Below are positions 623 through 21,973 of a stretch of DNA of 64,000 nucleotides, in pieces (position 1 is the stretch's first letter; the number at the start of each line of letters is the position of its first letter). The notes under the pieces were generated by a model. It searched no databases. It saw nothing but the letters and a program-made list of their open reading frames with translations, and was not told the DNA's origin. The translations under genes and the position numbers were made by a program. The DNA comes from Desulfobulbaceae bacterium BRH_c16a (GTDB lineage Bacteria; Desulfobacterota; Desulfobulbia; Desulfobulbales; Desulfocapsaceae): assembly GCA_000961725.1 (NCBI GenBank), contig LADS01000071.1:1-64000 (forward strand), read 5' to 3'.

Positions 623-3133
623 CTACGCTGCGAGTTTGAGGAGATTATTGGTCACATTCTCTTCAATATCCTCCTTTGCTGCCGGAGTAAGCAGAATATC
701 CAGGACCCCGTATTTAACCGCTTTTATAACTTTCGTTCTGGTCCAGCCTGGGCCTGCGGCAATAATCGGCAGGGAGCATGCCGAACTTACCTTGATTGCA
801 GCGCCAAAGGCCTGCTCGTTGACATCCTTCATTACCAGATAGACAGCCTTGAGCTGCCCCGGGATATAGTTATGGACATTATCTTTAAAAGACAGTGATT
901 TGACGGAATAACCCATGCCGCTGAGAACCGCGGCGATCTTCCCGGCCTCCGCCTCGTCATCGCCAATCAGCAGAATATCCGGCGATACAGCTTGCGCACC
1001 TGGCTCTCTCACGACACTGAGGTCACTGCCAGGCCCCTGAGAGAGACCTGCCGGTATTACTTCATCTGCATCATCCTGTACATCCTCCTCTTCATCTGTT
1101 TCCCGGGTTGCCCTCAGACCTTCGAGCTGCAGAAGCTCCAGTGGGAAAATAACATTCACCTTACCCAGGACATTCTCTTCCATGGAGAGATCCATGGTAC
1201 TCAGATAATATTCGTCATTCGGGAAAGGTTCGTCGGCTTCCAATTCCACCTTCATTGGAACGACCTGATGAAGGTCTGTTTTTATGAACCGCAGCCGTTT
1301 CGTATATTGTTCTTCGAAAACTGCCGTATACACTCCGGCAATGATATTGGCAATCTCACCGTAGGCGTCTTGAGTGTCCTCGCTGAACTCTTCATCGGCG
1401 ATAACCGATTCCAGCTCTGACGTGGGCAGCATTATCAGAGCGCCGCCGATTCGGATTGCGTCACGCAAGTTGACAACCAGATGGCTTTTCCCATCCAGTT
1501 CACCAACCACGTCCATATTGGCAATCACCTGTTTACCGGAAACAAAATCCGAGAAAAACGCTTCCTTGCCAATTACCGTATTGCTCTGGTTACTCAGTTT
1601 GACATCAATACCCAGAAGGGCAGAAACCTCGGCCTCCATCCTCTCGCCGCAGATTAGCAGAAGTTTGTCGACCCGTTTTCTATGTTTATCCAGCTTGTCT
1701 TTTGCTTCGGCGGAAACCGGCGCAGGCTTCTTTGCGGGCTTTTCCGGACTCGGCTGACTCTGGGCAGCTGGAGAGTTCGGTATTTTTTCACCGTCATTTT
1801 TTTTCGTTTCGGCCTGCTGTGGCATTTCCTGGACAGGTTGACTGTCGAGCTGCAGCAGTGCAGCGGGAAACAGCATATGGATGTTTCCCAGGCTCTTGCC
1901 TTCCACCGTCAAAGACATCTTACTGGAATAGTACAGTTTGTCTGGAATGGGTTGGTCGGAGGCCGTATCCACCTTGAGAGGAACGACAAGCTGGAGCTGC
2001 TTTTTTACAAATCTCAATTTCTTCGTGTACTGCTCTTCGAATACCGCCGTGTACACCCCGGAAACTATGTTTGCCACTTCGCCATAGGCATCCGTGGTGT
2101 CCTCGGTAAAGTCCTCTTCATTGACAACAGTGGTCAATTCGGCAGGAGGCAACATAATGAGTATGCCGCCAAGATGTATCGCATCTTTCAAACCTACGGC
2201 GAAATAACAGGTATCCTGGAATTCTCCGACCACCTCCATGTCGGCAAGCACTTGCTTACCGACAGCATGATCGGAGAAAAAGTCTTCTTTACTGATGATC
2301 CTGTTGTCCAGATCATCCAGGATAATATCGACGCCCAACAGGGCGCTTATCTCGGAGTTCAACCTCTTCTGACATTCGTCAAGCAGTCGATCGATCCTTT
2401 TTTTATGCTTTTCAAAATCGAGCTTCGGAGGATCGGTCTTTGGAGGCGGTCCATTTTTATCGGATGATTCTTTCGGCTTCTCCTTGGCTACCGCCTGGGC
2501 CGGTTTATCCTGGGGTACTTTCTCTTCTTTGACGGTCTCTGCCGCAGCTGGCTTCTTTTCCTCTTTTTCCAGACCGAAAGCTGCAGCAGGCAGCAGCAAA
2601 ACCATATCGCCCATCTGCCTGCCGTCGATGATCATTGAACACGAGGCCAGATAAAGCTGTTGGTTGAGTACCGGACTGTCCGACTCGATATCTACTTTTG
2701 CCGGGACGAGAATTTCCTGTTCTTTTCTGATAAAGCGACAGGGCTTCGGGTACATCTCCTCAAAATCTTTGGTGATCGAACCTGCTATTATATTAGCAAT
2801 TTCTCCGTAAGAATCCTCTATTTCCTCGCGGTACTCTTCTCGGCCGATCACCTCCTGCAATTCGGCATCGGGCAACATGATGAGTGTTCCGCCGAGTCGA
2901 ATTGCATCTTTAATACTTACCAGCAGACACGATTTTCCGGAAACATCACCGGTGATATCCAGATGAGCACAAATCTGTTTACCACGCAGCCGTTCAAAGG
3001 CTTCCTGTTTACTGACAAGTTCTCTGGCGCCGCTGTCCAGGATGAATTCGGCGCCGAGCAAAGCCCCTACTTCGTCCTGGACTCTTGTCTCAACTGCCTG
3101 GATGATCTTGTCAATTCGTTCTTGCTGTTTCAT
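623..3133 (-). CDS. triple CheC/CheX-like domain protein with C-terminal degenerate receiver domain
   Basis: An 836-residue cytoplasmic protein made of three similar modules (about residues 1-190, 240-430, 485-672). They are joined by Lys/Pro/Glu-rich linkers and end in a CheY-fold domain (about 717-836). Each module carries the CheC/CheX signature DxxxExxN (D107/E111/N114, D348/E352/N355, D589/E593/N596) inside a GEIANIIAG-type helix. The proline that follows sits 29 residues after the Asn in all three, instead of the 21 typical of CheC/CheX. The receiver keeps an acidic pair near residue 725, but the phospho-acceptor Asp and the conserved Lys are not where expected (LVMKD, LLTPA), so it is probably not phosphorylated. 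CheC/CheX proteins dephosphorylate CheY-P; whether these modules do is unknown. A sigma-28-like promoter lies upstream. Confidence 0.75.
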   Translation of the reverse strand: MKQQERIDKIIQAVETRVQDEVGALLGAEFILDSGARELVSKQEAFERLRGKQICAHLDITGDVSGKSCLLVSIKDAIRLGGTLIMLPDAELQEVIGREEYREEIEDSYGEIANIIAGSITKDFEEMYPKPCRFIRKEQEILVPAKVDIESDSPVLNQQLYLASCSMIIDGRQMGDMVLLLPAAAFGLEKEEKKPAAAETVKEEKVPQDKPAQAVAKEKPKESSDKNGPPPKTDPPKLDFEKHKKRIDRLLDECQKRLNSEISALLGVDIILDDLDNRIISKEDFFSDHAVGKQVLADMEVVGEFQDTCYFAVGLKDAIHLGGILIMLPPAELTTVVNEEDFTEDTTDAYGEVANIVSGVYTAVFEEQYTKKLRFVKKQLQLVVPLKVDTASDQPIPDKLYYSSKMSLTVEGKSLGNIHMLFPAALLQLDSQPVQEMPQQAETKKNDGEKIPNSPAAQSQPSPEKPAKKPAPVSAEAKDKLDKHRKRVDKLLLICGERMEAEVSALLGIDVKLSNQSNTVIGKEAFFSDFVSGKQVIANMDVVGELDGKSHLVVNLRDAIRIGGALIMLPTSELESVIADEEFSEDTQDAYGEIANIIAGVYTAVFEEQYTKRLRFIKTDLHQVVPMKVELEADEPFPNDEYYLSTMDLSMEENVLGKVNVIFPLELLQLEGLRATRETDEEEDVQDDADEVIPAGLSQGPGSDLSVVREPGAQAVSPDILLIGDDEAEAGKIAAVLSGMGYSVKSLSFKDNVHNYIPGQLKAVYLVMKDVNEQAFGAAIKVSSACSLPIIAAGPGWTRTKVIKAVKYGVLDILLTPAAKEDIEENVTNNLLKLAA

Positions 3134-4293: not shown

Positions 4294-4665
4294 TTAAAGC
4301 AGCGGGCCGAGGACTTCGTTAACCTTATCTGGGGTGAAAGGTTTCTTGATCGCTCCGACCGCACCGAGGGATTTGGCTTCTCCAATGATATCGTCTCCGG
4401 TTTCGGTAGAAATCATCAGGACCGGAATATCCTTCATATTCGGGCGGCTGGCCTTCTCTCTCAAAAAGGTAATGCCATCCATATTCGGCATATTGATATC
4501 GCTCAAGACGATATCGACCTTTTTGCTTTCGAGAACTTCCAAAGCCTCAAGCCCGTCGGCTGCTTCATAGATATTATCGAATTCTATCCCCGCCTGGCGA
4601 AGAGAACGTCCGATGATTTTCCGCATTGTGCTTGAGTCGTCAACTAACAGTACGTTTTTTCCCAT
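4294..4665 (-). CDS. cheY: CheY-like single-domain response regulator
   Basis: A 123-residue stand-alone receiver domain. The acidic pocket D9/D10, phospho-acceptor D56 (VLSDINMPNMDG), Ser/Thr 86-87 and K108-P109 (AIKKPF) are all in place, so it should be phosphorylatable. The open frame extends 49 codons further upstream, but the start MGKNVLLVDD at 4665 fits the family and has an aggagaaagga ribosome binding site. With two CheX-like genes downstream it forms a compact CheY/phosphatase set. No CheA, CheW, CheB or CheR lies in the window, so the kinase is elsewhere. It could act on FliM, whose N-terminal CheY-binding motif is present at 20993. Confidence 0.88.
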   Translation of the reverse strand: MGKNVLLVDDSSTMRKIIGRSLRQAGIEFDNIYEAADGLEALEVLESKKVDIVLSDINMPNMDGITFLREKASRPNMKDIPVLMISTETGDDIIGEAKSLGAVGAIKKPFTPDKVNEVLGPLL

Positions 4666-7458: not shown

Positions 7459-7875
7459 ATGGATCCCACCAAACCATTTGATGCCAATATGCAGCTGCTC
7501 GGCAAGGTCCTTGATCTGCGGGCACAAAAAGCCCAGGTCATTTCGGCCAATATAGCGAATGCGGAAACTCCCGGTTTTTCTCCATCCCGGTTCGATTTTG
7601 AGCAGGATCTGGCTCATGCCCTCGACAAGAATCGAGGGATTCGACTGGCACGATCGCACTCTACCCATATACCGCTAGGCCCGGCCAATTTTCAGGAAGT
7701 GAGCGGGAAAGTCGTCATGGTTGAAGACAAGACAGGGATAGGCGATAAAAACGGGGTGAGTGTCGATCAGGAAATGCTTGCCCTGTCGGAAAATGAACTG
7801 ATGTACGAAACAGCCGCCCAGCTGCTGAAACAAAAGCTCTCACTGCTGAAACACGTCATTTCAGGCGGGCAGTAA
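7459..7875 (+). CDS. flgB: flagellar proximal rod protein FlgB
   Basis: A 138-residue rod subunit exported by the flagellar type III system to build the proximal rod in the periplasm. It shows the rod/hook N-terminal motif (VISANIANAETPGFSPSRFDF) and the typical C-terminal helix (MLALSENELMYETAAQLLKQK). There is no cleaved signal peptide, as expected. The ribosome binding site is caggagtg before ATG at 7459. It begins the conserved flgB-flgC-fliE-fliF-fliG-fliH-fliI-fliJ run. Confidence 0.93.
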   Translation: MDPTKPFDANMQLLGKVLDLRAQKAQVISANIANAETPGFSPSRFDFEQDLAHALDKNRGIRLARSHSTHIPLGPANFQEVSGKVVMVEDKTGIGDKNGVSVDQEMLALSENELMYETAAQLLKQKLSLLKHVISGGQ

Positions 7876-7917
7876 CAGTTTTTACCACTCTTTAAATACT
7901 TACGAGGGAAGGATCTT

Positions 7918-8349
7918 ATGGATATTCTCAATACTTTTCAAATCAACGGTTCCGCTTTACGAGCCCACAGCCAGAGATTGAATACGATCAGCTCCAATCT
8001 TGCCAATGTGGAAACCACCTCAACTCCCGAGGGAGGCCCGTACAAGAAAAAGTCGGTATATTTTCAGAGTGCACCGCTGAGCTTCAAGGAGGAGCTCGAC
8101 GGCAAAATGAAGAACTCCATGCATGGCGTTACAGTCACCAAAATTGTCGAAGACAATACTCCGCCAAGAAAAGTGTACAATCCTTCGCATCCGGATGCCA
8201 AGGAAGACGGTTATGTCGAGATGCCGAATATCAGTGTCCTGGAAGAAATGGTTGATATGATGTCCGCGACAAGATCGTATCAGGCGAATGTCACTGCAAT
8301 AAAAATGGCGAAAAGAATGGCCCTCAAGGCTCTTGAGATAGGGAGGTAA
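7918..8349 (+). CDS. flgC: flagellar proximal rod protein FlgC
   Basis: A 143-residue proximal rod protein. The N-terminal coiled-coil motif (RLNTISSNLANVETT) and the C-terminal segment (MVDMMSATRSYQANVTAIKMAK) match the FlgC/FlgG/hook family, and the length is normal for FlgC. It lies 42 bases after flgB with a gagggaagg ribosome binding site, and 6 bases before fliE, so the three genes are almost certainly cotranscribed. Confidence 0.93.
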   Translation: MDILNTFQINGSALRAHSQRLNTISSNLANVETTSTPEGGPYKKKSVYFQSAPLSFKEELDGKMKNSMHGVTVTKIVEDNTPPRKVYNPSHPDAKEDGYVEMPNISVLEEMVDMMSATRSYQANVTAIKMAKRMALKALEIGR

Positions 8350-8355
8350 TACATC

Positions 8356-8655
8356 ATGACCACGATAAACAGCCTCGAAGGGATAACCCCGCTTACTCTT
8401 AAACCAACCGGTGAAAAGAGCATCCAGAGCACCGGCGCCGATTTTGCGGGCATGTTCAAATCGATGATCGAAAAGGTCAACGATTCTCAGGCGGCCGGCG
8501 AACAGGCCATTCAAAAACTGCACAGCGGCCAGGCAACTCATCTCCACGAAGTAATGATTGCTGTTGAAGAAGCGGATGTTTCCTTACGTATGCTTGTCCA
8601 GTTGCGTAACCGGGCCCAGACCGCCTACGAAGAAATAATGCGGATGCAGGTTTAA
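8356..8655 (+). CDS. fliE: flagellar hook-basal body adaptor FliE
   Basis: A 99-residue protein that links the MS ring to the rod. The family hallmark is in the C-terminal half: HEVMIAVEEADVSLRMLVQLRN followed by AYEEIMRMQV. The N-terminal third is variable, as usual. A gggaggtaat ribosome binding site overlaps the end of flgC, 6 bases upstream, which suggests translational coupling. Confidence 0.93.
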   Translation: MTTINSLEGITPLTLKPTGEKSIQSTGADFAGMFKSMIEKVNDSQAAGEQAIQKLHSGQATHLHEVMIAVEEADVSLRMLVQLRNRAQTAYEEIMRMQV

Positions 8656-8707
8656 CTTTCCGTTCACACAGCAATATTTATTTTTCATGAGCCGTAAAGG
8701 ATAGACA

Positions 8708-10330
8708 ATGGCCGAACAAAACAGAGGAGCACTGGTGGCGGAACAGCCCTTGCCGCCTGAAGTTGTACCCCCGGAGCGTAAAAATCTCCTGACCCTTGTA
8801 CAGCAATGGCCGCTTTCACGAAAAATTGCGACCGCAGCTGTTCTGTTGATTTCCATAGCTCTTTTTACGATCCTCATCATTCAGGCCCGAACCGCCGACC
8901 AGCAACTTCTTTATGCCAATCTTACCATGAATGATGCTGCGGCAGTTGCCGATTGGTTGAAGAGCCAGAAAATTGACTATACCTTGAAAAATGGCGGCAA
9001 GGACATCTGGATTTCTGCGCCGCAAATCTATCAGACCCGCCTTGAGCTTGCCGCCAACAGTCTCCCGAGCGGAGGAGGTGTCGGTTTTGAGGTTTTTGAC
9101 AAACAGAGCTTTGCCCTGACCGATTATGTCCAGAAAGTCAATTACACCAGGGCACTGCAGGGCGAACTTGCAAGGACGATCTCGTCGCTTGCACCTGTCG
9201 AATCGACCAGGGTTCACCTCGCCCTTCCGGAGAAAAGACTGTTTAAAAACCAGCAGGCAAATGCCACCGCTTCGGTAATCGTCACCTTGGTCCCTGGCAA
9301 GAGCCTTGATCAGAAGCAGGTGCAGGGGATCATTCATCTGGTTGCCGGTTCCGTCAATGATCTGGATCCGGAATATGTCAAAGTCATCGATGCCAACGGT
9401 GTTGTCCTCGAAAGCGAGAAAAAGACCGATAAAGACAATCTTCTTTCCGCCGACATGCTGGCATTTCAGCGCGAAGTTGAAAACAGACTCGAAATCCAGG
9501 CCCAGGACATGCTGGATAGATCCATGGGAAAAGATAACGCCATGGTGAGAGTTTCGGCAGCCCTCGATTTTGCAAAGGTAGAAAAAACTCAGGAACTCTT
9601 CGATGCCGACGAGCCGGTGGTGAGAAGCGAGCAGATCAATCAGGAGAGCAACGGCACGGAAACAGTCGGCGGCATTCCCGGAGTGCAGTCCAACCTGCAG
9701 GGGAATGAATTCGAGCAGAACGCCACTTCGTCCCCCTCGAGCAAAAACTCCCGCATCACCAATTACGAAATCAGCAAGACCATCAGCAAGACCGTCAATC
9801 CGGTCGGTACGGTAAACAAGCTCTCGGTCTCCGTTCTTGTTGCGGACAGTGTGAAACCGGGCGGAAACGGCACGCCCGGAACTCCTGTTCCCCGCACTGC
9901 CGAGGAGCTCAAATCAATCGAAAACATGGTCGCAAGCGCAATCGGTCTGGTACCTCAACGCGGCGATATAATCAATGTCTTGTCAATGCCTTTTGTCGAT
10001 CCGGTAAACATTCAACAGGATGGAGAACAGGTCACGGAAAACGGAATCTATCGGCACCTCCCTCTCATTAAATACGGCTTGATTGGTTTGGGATTGCTTT
10101 TAGTGTACTTTTTTCTGGTACGACCGGTTATTAAAACTATGAAAGGTGAAGTGAAAGAGCATTACAAAACGGTTAAACAGCTGGAACAGGAACAACACAT
10201 TCAAATTGCCGAAGAACCTGTTGAACCGCCTCTCCCCGTCGATGAAGCGATTGTCGCCTTGCGAAGGGAGGTCCAGCAGAATCAGATACCGACTGCATTT
10301 ATCATTAAGAACTGGATCCAGGAAGGTTGA
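8708..10330 (+). CDS. fliF: flagellar MS-ring protein FliF
   Basis: A 540-residue inner-membrane protein that forms the MS ring, the base on which rotor and export gate assemble. Two membrane segments frame the periplasmic part: about residues 40-60 (ATAAVLLISIALFTILIIQA) and about 454-475 (YGLIGLGLLLVYFFLVRP). Between them lie the ring-building motifs with YANLTMNDAAAVADWL, RTISSLAPVESTRVHLALP and the FliF beta-collar region. The cytoplasmic tail ends in a FliG-binding helix (TAFIIKNWIQEG). fliG starts 6 bases after the stop. Confidence 0.95.
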   Translation: MAEQNRGALVAEQPLPPEVVPPERKNLLTLVQQWPLSRKIATAAVLLISIALFTILIIQARTADQQLLYANLTMNDAAAVADWLKSQKIDYTLKNGGKDIWISAPQIYQTRLELAANSLPSGGGVGFEVFDKQSFALTDYVQKVNYTRALQGELARTISSLAPVESTRVHLALPEKRLFKNQQANATASVIVTLVPGKSLDQKQVQGIIHLVAGSVNDLDPEYVKVIDANGVVLESEKKTDKDNLLSADMLAFQREVENRLEIQAQDMLDRSMGKDNAMVRVSAALDFAKVEKTQELFDADEPVVRSEQINQESNGTETVGGIPGVQSNLQGNEFEQNATSSPSSKNSRITNYEISKTISKTVNPVGTVNKLSVSVLVADSVKPGGNGTPGTPVPRTAEELKSIENMVASAIGLVPQRGDIINVLSMPFVDPVNIQQDGEQVTENGIYRHLPLIKYGLIGLGLLLVYFFLVRPVIKTMKGEVKEHYKTVKQLEQEQHIQIAEEPVEPPLPVDEAIVALRREVQQNQIPTAFIIKNWIQEG

Positions 10331-10336
10331 AAAGCA

Positions 10337-11341
10337 ATGGCCATCGAAACTCTTACCGGACTCAACCGAGTCGCCGTTCTGCTTATCTGTCTGGGTGAGG
10401 AGGCCACGGCAAAGATATTTGCGGAACTCTCCGATGAAGAAATCAGACAGGTCGCCAGAACCATGGCCACGATCAATCATATTCCGGTCGACGTGAAGGA
10501 AAAGGTGTTTGCCACTTTCCACGATGCCCAGAATCGCTTTGCCGGATTGTTTGTCAAGGGTGAGGATTTTGCCAAGAATGCCATAACAGCGACTCCCGGT
10601 GAACAGCGATCTCATTTCCTCCTCGACCAGTTTCTTTCCGGAACCGAGACGAAGTCCCTTGAGACTATCGCTCTTATGGCTCCGCGCATGGTTGCCGGAC
10701 TTCTCGAACTCGAACACCCGCAGACGGTGGCCCTCGTGCTCTCCACCCAGCATATCGAGCATGCTGCCGAAATACTCACCCATCTGCCGGAAACAGTCAG
10801 GGCCGATGTAGCCTACAGGATCTCGAAGATCGAAAAAGTCTCGCCGGAGGTCATTACCCGAATCGAAGATGCGCTGCACCGGGAAATTGGTTTAGTATCA
10901 GGAAGAGCGCACAAAAAGGTCGGAGGAGTCGATGCAGTGGTGGGCATTCTCAACCATATGAAAAACAACCTCGATGCCGATATTCTCGATGAAATGGAAC
11001 TGCATGATCCTGAAATGGCTGAAGAGATCCGCAAAAAGATGTTCACCTTCGAGAACCTCATTGCTCTTGACGGCAGGTCTCTGCAGATGATCCTCAGGGA
11101 AGTAAACAACGATTCCCTGACCATGGCTTTGAAAACCGCGTCCGAACAGATGAAGGAAAAAATATTTGCCAACATGTCTTCCCGTGCTGCCGACATGATC
11201 AAGGACGACCTTGAAGCAATGGGACCTGTCCGCCTCTCCGAGGTGGAACTGATGCAGCAGTCTATTGTTAAAATCGCCATGAAACTTGAGGAAGAGGGTA
11301 AGCTGGTGCTGGGAACCGGAGGTGGCGATGAGCTTGTCTAG
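10337..11341 (+). CDS. fliG: flagellar motor switch protein FliG
   Basis: A 334-residue switch-complex protein that binds FliF at its N-terminus and receives torque from MotA at its C-terminus. The EHPQT motif that contacts FliM is at residues 126-130 (LELEHPQTVALVL). The C-terminal domain has the charged helix region (MAEEIRKKMFTFENLIALDGRSLQ) used in torque generation. The length is normal. The 3' end overlaps the start of fliH by 14 bases (ATG at 11328). Confidence 0.95.
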   Translation: MAIETLTGLNRVAVLLICLGEEATAKIFAELSDEEIRQVARTMATINHIPVDVKEKVFATFHDAQNRFAGLFVKGEDFAKNAITATPGEQRSHFLLDQFLSGTETKSLETIALMAPRMVAGLLELEHPQTVALVLSTQHIEHAAEILTHLPETVRADVAYRISKIEKVSPEVITRIEDALHREIGLVSGRAHKKVGGVDAVVGILNHMKNNLDADILDEMELHDPEMAEEIRKKMFTFENLIALDGRSLQMILREVNNDSLTMALKTASEQMKEKIFANMSSRAADMIKDDLEAMGPVRLSEVELMQQSIVKIAMKLEEEGKLVLGTGGGDELV

Positions 11342-12170
11342 ATATTATAAAAGCTCGGCGTCCTTCCGGCCGGAAGAGATCGTCAAGCAGGATGGCAGCA
11401 GGCCGGCAGGCTGGGCGCCCTTGCCACGAAGTGACGACAAACCTTTTATCAACCAGCGGCTCACCGCGGACAAAGACCGTCAGGCAAACTCTGTCATGAA
11501 GAATGCCGCTTCGCCGCCGCCATCACCGGCAAAGGGGGGGGATGCCACTGCTCTTGACCCGGAAGGCTGCCCTACCGCCGAATCCCAGGCCGCGATCGAG
11601 CCACATGACGAACAGCTTCCCTCCCAAATACCAATTGATTTAAGCGTGTATGTCGAACTCGCTGTTGCCGAGAAACAAAAAGAAGAGGCATACAGCCAGG
11701 GACTGGAGAAGGGACGCATGGAGGGCCATGACAAAGCCGAGCAGGATTTTGGCGCTGCCACCCGAGCTCTGCTTCTTGCCTGCCAGCAGCTTGACACGCT
11801 TCGCGAAACAATAATCGGCAACAGCAGCCGTGAGCTTCTCGAATTTTCCCTGGCAATAGCCGAAAGAATTCTGCGCATATCCGTCCAGGAACAGGATGCT
11901 TCGATTGTCGCGACTATCGAAGAGGCTTTACGCAGGGCAGTGAAATCGGATGAATTCTCCATTTTTATCCATCCCGACGATTATGCCGCAGTATCGGAAA
12001 AAGCGGCTGAAATAGTCGCCGGAATCAGCGGCTTGAACAATGTTGTGTTGCGAAAGGATAAAACTGTCGAACGGGGAGGCGCAAAGATCGAGTCCGATAA
12101 CTGCACCATCGATGCCACCATCGCCGGACAATTCGACCTGATACGGGAAGAAGTTCAAAAGAAGCTGTAA
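11328..12170 (+). CDS. fliH: flagellar export stator FliH
   Basis: A 280-residue protein that binds and regulates the FliI ATPase of the export apparatus. The first 110 residues are low-complexity and variable. A GxxxGxxxG run (GLEKGRMEG), typical of FliH, begins the coiled coil. The C-terminal half (SLAIAERILRISVQEQDASIV to AGQFDLIREEVQKKL) matches the FliH/YscL domain. ATG at 11328 with the ggaggtggcg ribosome binding site is preferred over the longer in-frame extension inside fliG. Confidence 0.88.
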   Translation: MSLSRYYKSSASFRPEEIVKQDGSRPAGWAPLPRSDDKPFINQRLTADKDRQANSVMKNAASPPPSPAKGGDATALDPEGCPTAESQAAIEPHDEQLPSQIPIDLSVYVELAVAEKQKEEAYSQGLEKGRMEGHDKAEQDFGAATRALLLACQQLDTLRETIIGNSSRELLEFSLAIAERILRISVQEQDASIVATIEEALRRAVKSDEFSIFIHPDDYAAVSEKAAEIVAGISGLNNVVLRKDKTVERGGAKIESDNCTIDATIAGQFDLIREEVQKKL

Positions 12171-12183
12171 GTCCTTTCATGCA

Positions 12184-13605
12184 TTGATTCACATGTTTCC
12201 CGCCACCGGCAATACAGGAGAAGCTCTCCAATCAAACAATAACAGGATCATGGTTCTCGACGCCGCAGCAATCAAAAACATCAACGTCATCAAGATCTGG
12301 GGCAAAGTTACCCGCATAGTCGGCCTGGTTATCGAAGGCTATTGCCCCCATGCGACCATCGGTTCACTCTGTGAACTGAGCGCCATGACCGGGGATCAGA
12401 AGATTTTCGCCGAAATTGTCGGTTTCAAGGACAGCAAGGCTCTCCTCATGCCCCTCGGAGAGTTGCGGGGTCTTGGCCCTGGCAGCCTTATCAGGGTTGT
12501 CCGCACCAGCGCCACGATCTCGGTCGGCAACAACCTCCTCGGCCGGGTGGTCGATGCAATGGAGATTCCCCAGGACGGCCTTCCGGCACCGATCCTTACC
12601 GAGGAAAAAGATCTCTACTCCCTCCCCCCCGGCCCGATGGAACGGCAAAATATCAGCGAGACACTCGACCTCGGCATACGGGCGATAAATGGCCTGGTCA
12701 CCTGCGGCATGGGCCAGAGGCTTGGGATCATGGCGGGTTCGGGGATCGGCAAGAGCGTCCTGCTCGGCATGATGTCCAAATACGCCAAAGCCGATATCAA
12801 CGTCATCGCCTTGATAGGCGAACGAGGCCGGGAGGTTCGCGAATTTATCGAGAGGGATCTGGGGGCGGACGGTCTGGCAAGATCGGTTATCGTCGTTGTC
12901 ACTTCCGATCAATCCCCTCTCCTCCGCATGCGCGGCGCCTTCGTCGCCACCGCAATCGCCGAATATTTCTGCAATCAGGGAAAAAATGTCCTGCTCATGA
13001 TGGATTCCGTCACCCGTTTTGCCATGGCCATGCGCGAGATCGGTCTTGCAATAGGCGAACCGCCGACGACCAAGGGATACACCCCCTCGGTTTTCGCCAC
13101 CCTCCCCAAACTACTCGAAAGGGCCGGAAGGTTTCGTGACAAAGGTTCCATTACCGGTCTTTACACGGTTCTTGTCGACGGAGACGATATGACCGAACCG
13201 GTTGCCGATTCGGTGCGCTCAATCCTCGACGGACATATTGTTCTCTCCAGAGCTCTTGCCGCAAGAAACCATTTTCCGGCAATCGACATCCTGAACAGTG
13301 CCAGCCGGGTTATGCGCGATATCGTCTCCCCGAGACATCTTGAGCTTGCCGGCAAAGCGCGGGAGGTGCTCGCCAGGTATGTTGAAGCTGAAGATCTCAT
13401 TAATATCGGTGCATATGTCAGAGGCTCCAACGCCAAGATAGATTATGCCATCGGCAAAATCGACGAGATCAATTCTTTCCTCCGACAGAATTTTAACGAA
13501 ACCACCAACCTGAAACAATCGATTGAACAATTAGGCGGTCTGCTCAGTGACCGCAAGGACGAAGAACCACTGAAGAAAAATCGTCGCCAAACCGACAAGC
13601 TATAA
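12184..13605 (+). CDS. fliI: flagellum-specific ATP synthase FliI
   Basis: The hexameric ATPase that powers unfolding and export of flagellar substrates, related to the F1 beta subunit. Walker A is AGSGIGKS at residues 184-191, Walker B is LLMMDSVTRFA with the Asp near 274, and the type III ATPase signature GEPPTTKGYTPSVFATLPKLLERAG is present. The length, 473 residues, is normal. The start is uncertain: TTG at 12184 gives the longest form, while ATG at 12193 and ATG at 12250 are alternatives, and none has a strong ribosome binding site. It lies between fliH and fliJ as in most genomes. Confidence 0.95.
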   Translation: MIHMFPATGNTGEALQSNNNRIMVLDAAAIKNINVIKIWGKVTRIVGLVIEGYCPHATIGSLCELSAMTGDQKIFAEIVGFKDSKALLMPLGELRGLGPGSLIRVVRTSATISVGNNLLGRVVDAMEIPQDGLPAPILTEEKDLYSLPPGPMERQNISETLDLGIRAINGLVTCGMGQRLGIMAGSGIGKSVLLGMMSKYAKADINVIALIGERGREVREFIERDLGADGLARSVIVVVTSDQSPLLRMRGAFVATAIAEYFCNQGKNVLLMMDSVTRFAMAMREIGLAIGEPPTTKGYTPSVFATLPKLLERAGRFRDKGSITGLYTVLVDGDDMTEPVADSVRSILDGHIVLSRALAARNHFPAIDILNSASRVMRDIVSPRHLELAGKAREVLARYVEAEDLINIGAYVRGSNAKIDYAIGKIDEINSFLRQNFNETTNLKQSIEQLGGLLSDRKDEEPLKKNRRQTDKL

Positions 13606-20819: not shown

Positions 20820-20992
20820 ACAGTAACCCTTCACCAGCACCCCATTTTCGTCCGATCAGGCCACCTCACATAGCCAACTATAGCTCGGCGGCCTGCTTGA
20901 ACGAACCTGGAGCACTGGATGAACGGTTACAAATCCAGGTTATTCAGTCTTTTGAGACCAGAGAAGGATTACCAATAAACATATCACAGCTC

Positions 20993-21973
20993 ATGGAACA
21001 GATTCTCAATAAAACGGAAATATCCGATCTTCTGAAGGCGATCAGGGAAGGCAGGGTTCCCCTCGATATCGACGACAAAGAGCAGGATGCTTTTCTCGCC
21101 TGCACCCCGGTAAATCTTTTTCAGCTCACCCGTCCCGACAGCGAGCTTTTTCGGATTCCCAATTTCGATATCATTCTCGATATATTTTGCCGCACCTACG
21201 CCACCTCTCTGACCAACCTTCTGCAAAGAAATTTTTCAATCACCAGAACAGGTCTCGAGAGCTATGAGTTTCAAAAATTCATGGCCGACAAGCACAGCCC
21301 GGGGGCCATCGGCATTCTTGATATGCCGCCGTTGAAATACGGCTCTCTTATTATTTTCGATGCCGCTTTATCCTTTTCAATGCTCGAAATCATGCTGGGA
21401 GCTTCCAGCGAGCTCGAATCGCTTCATCTCGATCGCCGCCTCACCACCATTGAACTGAATATTCTGAAGACCTTGCTCTCCAACGCCTGTCACGACCTCG
21501 ACAAGTCCTTCAACCAGTTGCTGGAAATGCATACTTCCTTGATCAAACTGGAAAATAATGCCCGCCTTGTCTCCATTGTCGAGCCGGACGCCGAGGTTAT
21601 CGTCGGGACATTCGTGGTGAAAGTCGGCGAGCAGTCGGGACAGATCCATCTGGTCTTTCCGTTTGCCACGCTTGAACCGCTTCGGGATGTCCTGAAGCAG
21701 TTGCTCAATATTTCCACCACTACCCAGAGCACCTGGCAGGCTGTGCTCGAGGATGAAGTACAGCAGGTCGCGGCATCGATCACAGCTCTTTCCGGGAACA
21801 TAACGCTTTCGATCAATCAGATCCTGCAGCTGAAGGAAGGCGATCTTCTCGAGCTTGATTACGATCCGAATGCACCGCTGAAAGTTATGGTTGAAGACAA
21901 ACTGAAGTTTTATGCAATTCCCGGAACACATAATGGCAAAAAAGCCATCAGTCTTACCGGCACCAATACATGA
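20993..21973 (+). CDS. fliM: flagellar motor switch protein FliM
   Basis: The central C-ring protein that binds CheY-P and FliG. From ATG at 20993 it is 326 residues and begins MEQILNKTEISDLLKAI, matching the N-terminal CheY-binding motif (ILSQxEIDALL) at the usual place. An in-frame TTG at 20897 would add 32 residues before that motif, which is atypical, but neither start has a clear ribosome binding site. The middle CheC-like domain (LIIFDAALSFSMLEIMLG) and a C-terminal SpoA domain (KEGDLLELDYDPNAPLKVMV) are present. It overlaps no neighbour and is followed by fliN. Confidence 0.93.
   Translation: MEQILNKTEISDLLKAIREGRVPLDIDDKEQDAFLACTPVNLFQLTRPDSELFRIPNFDIILDIFCRTYATSLTNLLQRNFSITRTGLESYEFQKFMADKHSPGAIGILDMPPLKYGSLIIFDAALSFSMLEIMLGASSELESLHLDRRLTTIELNILKTLLSNACHDLDKSFNQLLEMHTSLIKLENNARLVSIVEPDAEVIVGTFVVKVGEQSGQIHLVFPFATLEPLRDVLKQLLNISTTTQSTWQAVLEDEVQQVAASITALSGNITLSINQILQLKEGDLLELDYDPNAPLKVMVEDKLKFYAIPGTHNGKKAISLTGTNT

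Follow-up and report, generated by a model that had tools for sequence, protein, structure and literature searches.

CheX, CheC and FliY act on phosphorylated CheY in the same way: a Glu and an Asn are inserted into its active site and orient a water molecule onto the phospho-Asp. CheX forms a beta-strand homodimer and has, by consensus, a Pro some 21-22 positions beyond the Asn, CheC carries two ExxN sites per domain, and FliY, which belongs to the flagellar switch of Bacillus and Thermotoga, joins a CheC-type domain to a SPOA domain. CheY itself contacts FliM through its alpha4-beta5 face. In the published descriptions, members of this superfamily reach into the active site of the receiver with an Asn and an acidic residue, the latter forming a salt bridge with the Lys there (PMC3035606), FliY is presented as a part of the motor that contains a domain of the phosphatase family (PMC6946799), and the CheA-CheC/CheX fusions of Leptospirae join a CheC/CheX domain to another signalling domain (PMC10782961). 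Receiver domains without the phosphotransfer residues were defined as pseudo-receivers in a 2025 review, which calls the activation and inactivation mechanisms of the bacterial ones still a mystery and in the main text of which a text search returned neither CheX nor CheC (PMC12632262). A description of CheC-type modules fused to a pseudo-receiver was not found in the open-licence literature, an absence that weighs little.

The window analysed here, a stretch of 64,000 nucleotides from Desulfobulbaceae bacterium BRH_c16a, a relative of sulfate reducers, begins at the start of its contig and carries a gene for a protein of three such modules and a C-terminal pseudo-receiver (PsR; Table 1). Two canonical cheX genes and cheY lie upstream of it on the same strand, and the flagellar cluster is on the opposite strand. 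The TPR-like gene of Table 1 also adjoins the module gene in relatives without cheY and cheX. A gene for a Mutator-type transposase, which we take to be IS256-like, is cut by the contig end (positions 2-523), about 100 bases past the stop of the module gene. The module gene is genuine and not a chance reading frame, since it is conserved across the genus: among 14 other genomes, a complete or nearly complete copy was found in 11, a fragment at a contig end in 1 and none in 2. Named relatives include Desulforhopalus and Desulfopila. In its own genome, matches to the CheX and CheC families were confined to this locus, and a profile search gave no match to CheZ.

Table 1. Features of the locus, with PsR genes without a catalytic module from three other genomes
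Feature	Position	Strand	Remarks
Three-module gene with C-terminal PsR	623..3133	-	ATG start, 836 aa
Module 1 (M1), aa 1-192	2558..3133	-	D107/E111/N114
Module 2 (M2), aa 238-432	1838..2422	-	D348/E352/N355
Module 3 (M3), aa 478-673	1115..1702	-	D589/E593/N596; nearest to module 2
Linker 1	2423..2557	-	predicted disordered; pLDDT <50 at 191-236
Linker 2	1703..1837	-	predicted disordered; pLDDT <50 at 432-476
Linker 3	989..1114	-	predicted largely disordered; pLDDT <50 at 677-715
PsR, aa 716-836	626..988	-	patch W797-T798...A805...Y808-G809...D812-I813...P817
cheX2, canonical CheX, 155 aa	3229..3696	-	Pro at x21
cheX1, canonical CheX, 149 aa	3773..4222	-	Pro at x21
cheY	4294..4665	-	Response_reg match 90.9 bits; start set by likeness to 123-aa relatives
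TPR-like protein (by eye), ~800 aa	4882..7413	+	between cheY/cheX cassette and flgB
flgB, flgC, fliE, fliF, fliG, fliH, fliI	7459..13605	+	named from gene order and recognition, no profile
fliM	20897-21973		FliM profile match
PsR without catalytic module	L127 5157-5927, L140 3456-3980, L147 3730-4314		genomes G023, G126, G088

An earlier interpretation, made from the sequence alone (the sequence-only reading), had proposed three CheC/CheX-like modules in one chain. This was borne out by the prediction of three folded modules and by Pfam, whose CheX family covers three stretches of the chain, with 56.7 bits over the full length against a cut-off of 27. When the whole genome was searched, two of the modules scored 26.1 and 23.7 bits individually, slightly below that cut-off, and the third was unlisted. 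The modules share 39, 40 and 53% identity in pairs. Each contains a single D...E..N, with Glu and Asn on the catalytic helix, and not the double ExxN of the CheC type. The same reading had pointed to a conserved DxxxExxN with an aberrant Pro, which also holds: the next Pro common to all three modules is at x29, against x21 in both neighbouring CheX proteins and 21-22 in the CheX consensus. Module 1 carries two additional Pro residues, at x14 and x16. The D, E and N are invariant across 44 aligned modules; in 55 chosen proteins the E is present in 116 of 116 modules and the N in 114, and once a wider set with decayed genes is taken, E and N are both retained by 214 of 231 module matches. When the modules were compared to CheX by hhalign, the catalytic helix alone aligned (29 columns, 92.9%), and E and N fell on the E and N of CheX. 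The modules thus resemble CheX in this helix and in their Pfam matches, but they are longer, have the Pro at x29, are closer to FliM, FliY and CheC in predicted fold, and are fused and repeated; the whole protein exceeds the Pfam cut-off for CheX, and by the Pro spacing the modules fall outside CheX proper. Searches of PDB sequences with the full chain and with a module profile gave no significant match for the modules.

Structure prediction, which had been suggested together with that reading, gave three folded modules, disordered linkers and a CheY-type receiver fold. In the AlphaFold2 model of the full chain (17-sequence alignment), ten-residue blocks of the modules had pLDDT values of 85-97, the linkers fell below 50, and the PsR blocks lay at 72-89 with a final block at 63; the overall pTM was 0.33, and the placement of the modules relative to each other is therefore undefined. 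A single-module model built from 44 aligned modules reached a pLDDT of 97.3 and has a CheC-type fold. Its VIA-align Z scores were 17.8-20.4 for FliM middle domains, 19.9 for FliY (4hyn), 16.0-17.2 for CheC-type and 11.2-14.0 for CheX-type structures, the next unrelated fold scoring 4.4; Foldseek similarly ranked FliY, FliM and CheC above CheX. Judged by this predicted fold, the modules are more aptly described as a CheC/FliY/FliM-type subgroup than as CheX proper. Binding of the modules to FliG, suggested by the FliM fold, was considered and rejected, the hhalign match to FliM sequences being weak (7.3 and 6.2%). FliY shares the module fold but has one module, whereas one to three occur here, and the identity is 16%; the protein is not a FliY, as Pfam found no SPOA (FliN-like) domain in the 836 residues and the PsR stands in its C-terminal place. 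The Leptospirae fusions differ in having a kinase as the partner where a PsR is found here, and tandem modules are not mentioned in the part of that article dealing with them (PMC10782961).

The C-terminal domain had been described as a CheY fold that lacks the phospho-Asp and the conserved Lys, and this description stands. By DSSP, strand beta3 spans residues 763-767 (AVYLV) and is followed by M768, leaving no Asp at the strand end; T816 occupies the position of the CheY Lys and G794 that of the Thr, as read from the alignment. One candidate for the Asp is D770, which MAFFT places in the Asp column of CheY, but this column is not conserved, with D, E, N, R, Q and further residues across the family. 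A phmmer alignment to NtrC1 left a gap opposite the phospho-Asp. The acidic pair D725-D726 persists near the end of beta1 and varies among relatives. A conserved phospho-Asp was found in none of 30 aligned PsRs; the set covers relatives with one module from other parts of the phylum, of which those of families f39 and f115 retain the Lys-Pro. A recent loss of the phospho-Asp is ruled out, because one-module relatives in other families also have no conserved Asp.

The nearest profile match of the PsR is PleD (E 7e-5), and its fold matches PleD and CpaE. It is like the second receiver of PleD and other pseudo-receivers in having a receiver fold without the phospho-Asp; unlike PleD, which bears a diguanylate cyclase, it is tied to a row of phosphatase-type modules. 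Among 18 aligned PsRs 20 positions are invariant, 16 of them within residues 789-818, i.e. in 30 of 124 positions, a segment that starts shortly ahead of beta4 and ends shortly past beta5 (hypergeometric p 8e-9, for a stretch picked after inspection). The conserved patch sits on beta4-alpha4-beta5. K801 is invariant solely in these first 18 sequences and is replaced in 10 of the 17 genomes without the cheY/cheX cassette described below.

A search for the same architecture, also suggested earlier, uncovered a family distributed across the phylum beside cheX and cheY, with zero to three modules. In the order, 114 of 257 genomes gave a match to the module profile, and so did 28 of 395 genomes spread evenly over the phylum, one of the latter (G286) with a weak, chance-like match. 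FliM was matched in 182 of the 257 genomes. These include 115 genomes of families f1, f4 and f12, in which modules were found in 110 and the PsR in 111 (counted by hand from listings, leaving out weak PsR matches with E >1e-6), whereas none of the 67 FliM-positive genomes in the remaining families has a module. The four FliM-positive genomes of f1, f4 and f12 without a PsR match are G001, in which the gene reaches the contig end, G080, and the flagellated G026 and G119, in which modules went unmatched as well. In other parts of the phylum, proteins of ~320-380 aa combine one module with a receiver (f39, f41, f115 and one f74 genome), and two-module proteins occur in f95, f112 and a second f74 genome. 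A related module of CheC type occurs in f52 and f85, joined there to CBS-looking domains (by eye) that replace the receiver, and in f52 this fusion adjoins cheX and cheY in both regions examined. In 18 neighbourhoods a canonical cheX was adjacent in all 18 and cheY in 17, and flagellar genes were in view in 10.

The sequence-only reading had called three modules unusual, which is correct in that they are a minority, but they are not unique: among 107 genes with an intact 5' end, three modules are present in 20, two in 75, a single one in 9 (including that of G001, cut at the 3' end by the contig) and none in 3. The linkers between modules have a median length of 49 residues (range 27-93, n=117). 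The closest pair is formed by modules 2 and 3 in 15 three-module genes (genera g1, g25 and g26; in G013 by a margin of one point), and by modules 1 and 2 in the other five (four in g7 and one in g31), with up to 86% identity in G132. The trees concur on these pairings, with several poorly supported nodes. Since the closest pair differs between lineages and the trees agree, a third module appears to have been gained independently on two or more occasions and perhaps on as many as four (g1/g25/g26; G128-G129-G139; G132; G173). In G047 (L141 2979-4078) the module and the PsR lie in two overlapping ORFs, which may be a split gene or an assembly error. FliM in f1, f4 and f12 (10 sequences) is divergent, with a MLGAS-like loop in place of the FLGGSG type and an N-terminal CheY-binding-like motif of the form ILxKxEIxxLL and not ILSQDEVDALL; nine FliMs from the other families of the order, which are without the long module gene, are canonical. 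This divergence is compatible with co-evolution with the module gene and is confounded with ancestry.

The locus was compiled in 115 genomes, chosen by their PsR match or, in two cases, by a module match, a sampling that says nothing on retention of the PsR. The cassette was scored as present when cheX or cheY lay within 2.8 kb upstream, and as absent when neither did and at least 900 bases upstream were available; 14 genomes with insufficient upstream sequence (13 intact, 1 decayed) were left out. With the cassette, E and N were whole in every module seen in 83 of 84 genomes, the sole exception being an N to D change in one module of G176. Without it (n=17), 5 genomes were intact (G148, G149, G153, G016 and G115), 8 decayed, 1 mixed and 3 without a module. 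The association gives a Fisher p of 6e-11, uncorrected for relatedness; by genus, any loss occurred in 1 of 20 with the cassette and in 4 of 7 without (p 0.009). Genus g21 has both states, intact with the cassette and decayed without, and in g25 all three cassette-less genomes are intact. CheA was absent from 14 of the 17 cassette-less genomes, gave a weak match of 29-30 bits in 2 and was present in G115; these absences weigh less than presences, as many genomes are incomplete and mostly draft assemblies. CheX was present in all 7 intact controls and missing from each of the 11 flagellated genomes tested in which the gene is reduced; it was also absent from G172, G010, G017 and G185, which have no FliM match.

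The PsR followed a different course. It was found in 27 of 30 FliM-positive genomes of f1, f4 and f12 without a strong CheA match (E up to 1e-10; the 30 counted by hand), although in several of them the missing CheA is probably an assembly gap, since cheX or cheY is still at the locus. The flagellated genomes G023, G126 and G088 have kept the PsR with no recognisable catalytic module. All 17 cassette-less genomes retain the eight patch residues listed for the PsR in Table 1; of the 20 invariant positions, a mean of 16.4 is kept in these genomes against 18.7 in 82 with the cassette, the PsR being likewise somewhat eroded there. dN/dS was computed on the domains only, for 14 pairs. In the modules it was 0.21-0.35 in the five pairs without chemotaxis genes and 0.075-0.13 in six of the nine pairs with them, the other three not being computable; in the PsR it was 0.09-0.24 and, in eight of the nine, 0.06-0.27, respectively. 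The intervals overlap, genomes recur in three of the five chemotaxis-less pairs, and the upstream region of G152 is cut; as supporting evidence, the chemotaxis-less pairs give an impression of relaxed modules and a constrained PsR.

That the catalytic pair tracks the presence of cheY and cheX makes CheY-P the most likely substrate of the modules, and that the PsR tracks flagella and not chemotaxis makes a flagellar partner most likely for it; the best reading is that the PsR has a flagellar job of its own, independent of CheY-P. We consider it probable that the protein is a multi-headed CheY-P phosphatase with the CheC/FliY/FliM-middle fold, anchored by the PsR. Every module would use its Glu and Asn as CheX, CheC and FliY do, reaching into the active site of CheY-P and positioning a water molecule for attack on the phospho-Asp. 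With two or three modules on flexible linkers, the protein would make active sites locally more concentrated at the spot to which it is attached. The PsR, having no phosphorylation site, would be a constitutively docked, CheY-like adaptor that binds part of the flagellar apparatus through the conserved alpha4-beta5 face. The simplest joint reading would be a phosphatase with several heads, tethered and built on a PsR, and analogous in function to FliY. As a more tentative elaboration, the PsR could be a permanent mimic of CheY-P on the flagellar switch, e.g. on the N-terminal helix of FliM, which would carry the predicted phosphatase modules there and, once chemotaxis is gone, still serve the motor in a role of its own. 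Of the roles put forward in the sequence-only reading, a phosphatase of a new subtype gains indirect support from the tracking of E and N with cheX/cheY (83/84 vs 5/17), the separate sequence group and the FliM/FliY/CheC-type predicted fold; a scaffold fits the PsR part, which outlasts the modules, but does not fit the modules themselves.

Dimerisation could also explain the PsR: by pairing with itself it would form a six-headed dimer, as the pseudo-receiver of PleD, its closest profile match, is linked to dimerisation. The position of the conserved patch agrees with this, alpha4-beta5-alpha5 being described as the dimerisation surface of many pseudo-receivers (PMC12632262), but a mere dimeriser of the modules would be purposeless once these are gone, and the PsR persists in the three genomes without them; we regard this explanation as unlikely. 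The decoy or sink of the sequence-only reading, in which the modules bind several CheY-P molecules without hydrolysis and buffer the signal, would be served by several modules per chain on flexible linkers, and the two canonical CheX proteins next door could be the enzymes. It is disfavoured and rather improbable, because mere binding needs no catalytic Asn, which is kept together with the Glu in every module of nearly all cassette-bearing genomes. That the FliM-like modules enter the motor as extra FliM-type subunits of the C-ring is suggested by the FliM middle domain as top VIA-align match and by the frequent position of the gene at the flagellar cluster; against the missing SPOA domain (Pfam), and with catalytic residues that track cheY and cheX among flagellated genomes, it appears quite improbable. 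Least probable is autoinhibition, in which the PsR mimics CheY and fills a module active site until displaced: the chain does join a CheY fold to modules for which CheY is a probable ligand, but the PsR is retained without modules and has T816 in place of the Lys with which the acidic residue of the phosphatase would form its salt bridge (PMC3035606).

If the anchored, multi-headed phosphatase is correct, the family would represent an architecture of CheY-P phosphatases whose count of catalytic modules, from zero to three, is an evolvable setting. The expansion of the modules would have arisen independently more than once, here in a genome without a detected CheZ. The role of the PsR would be separable from CheY signalling, as some lineages have kept the PsR and lost the chemotaxis genes.
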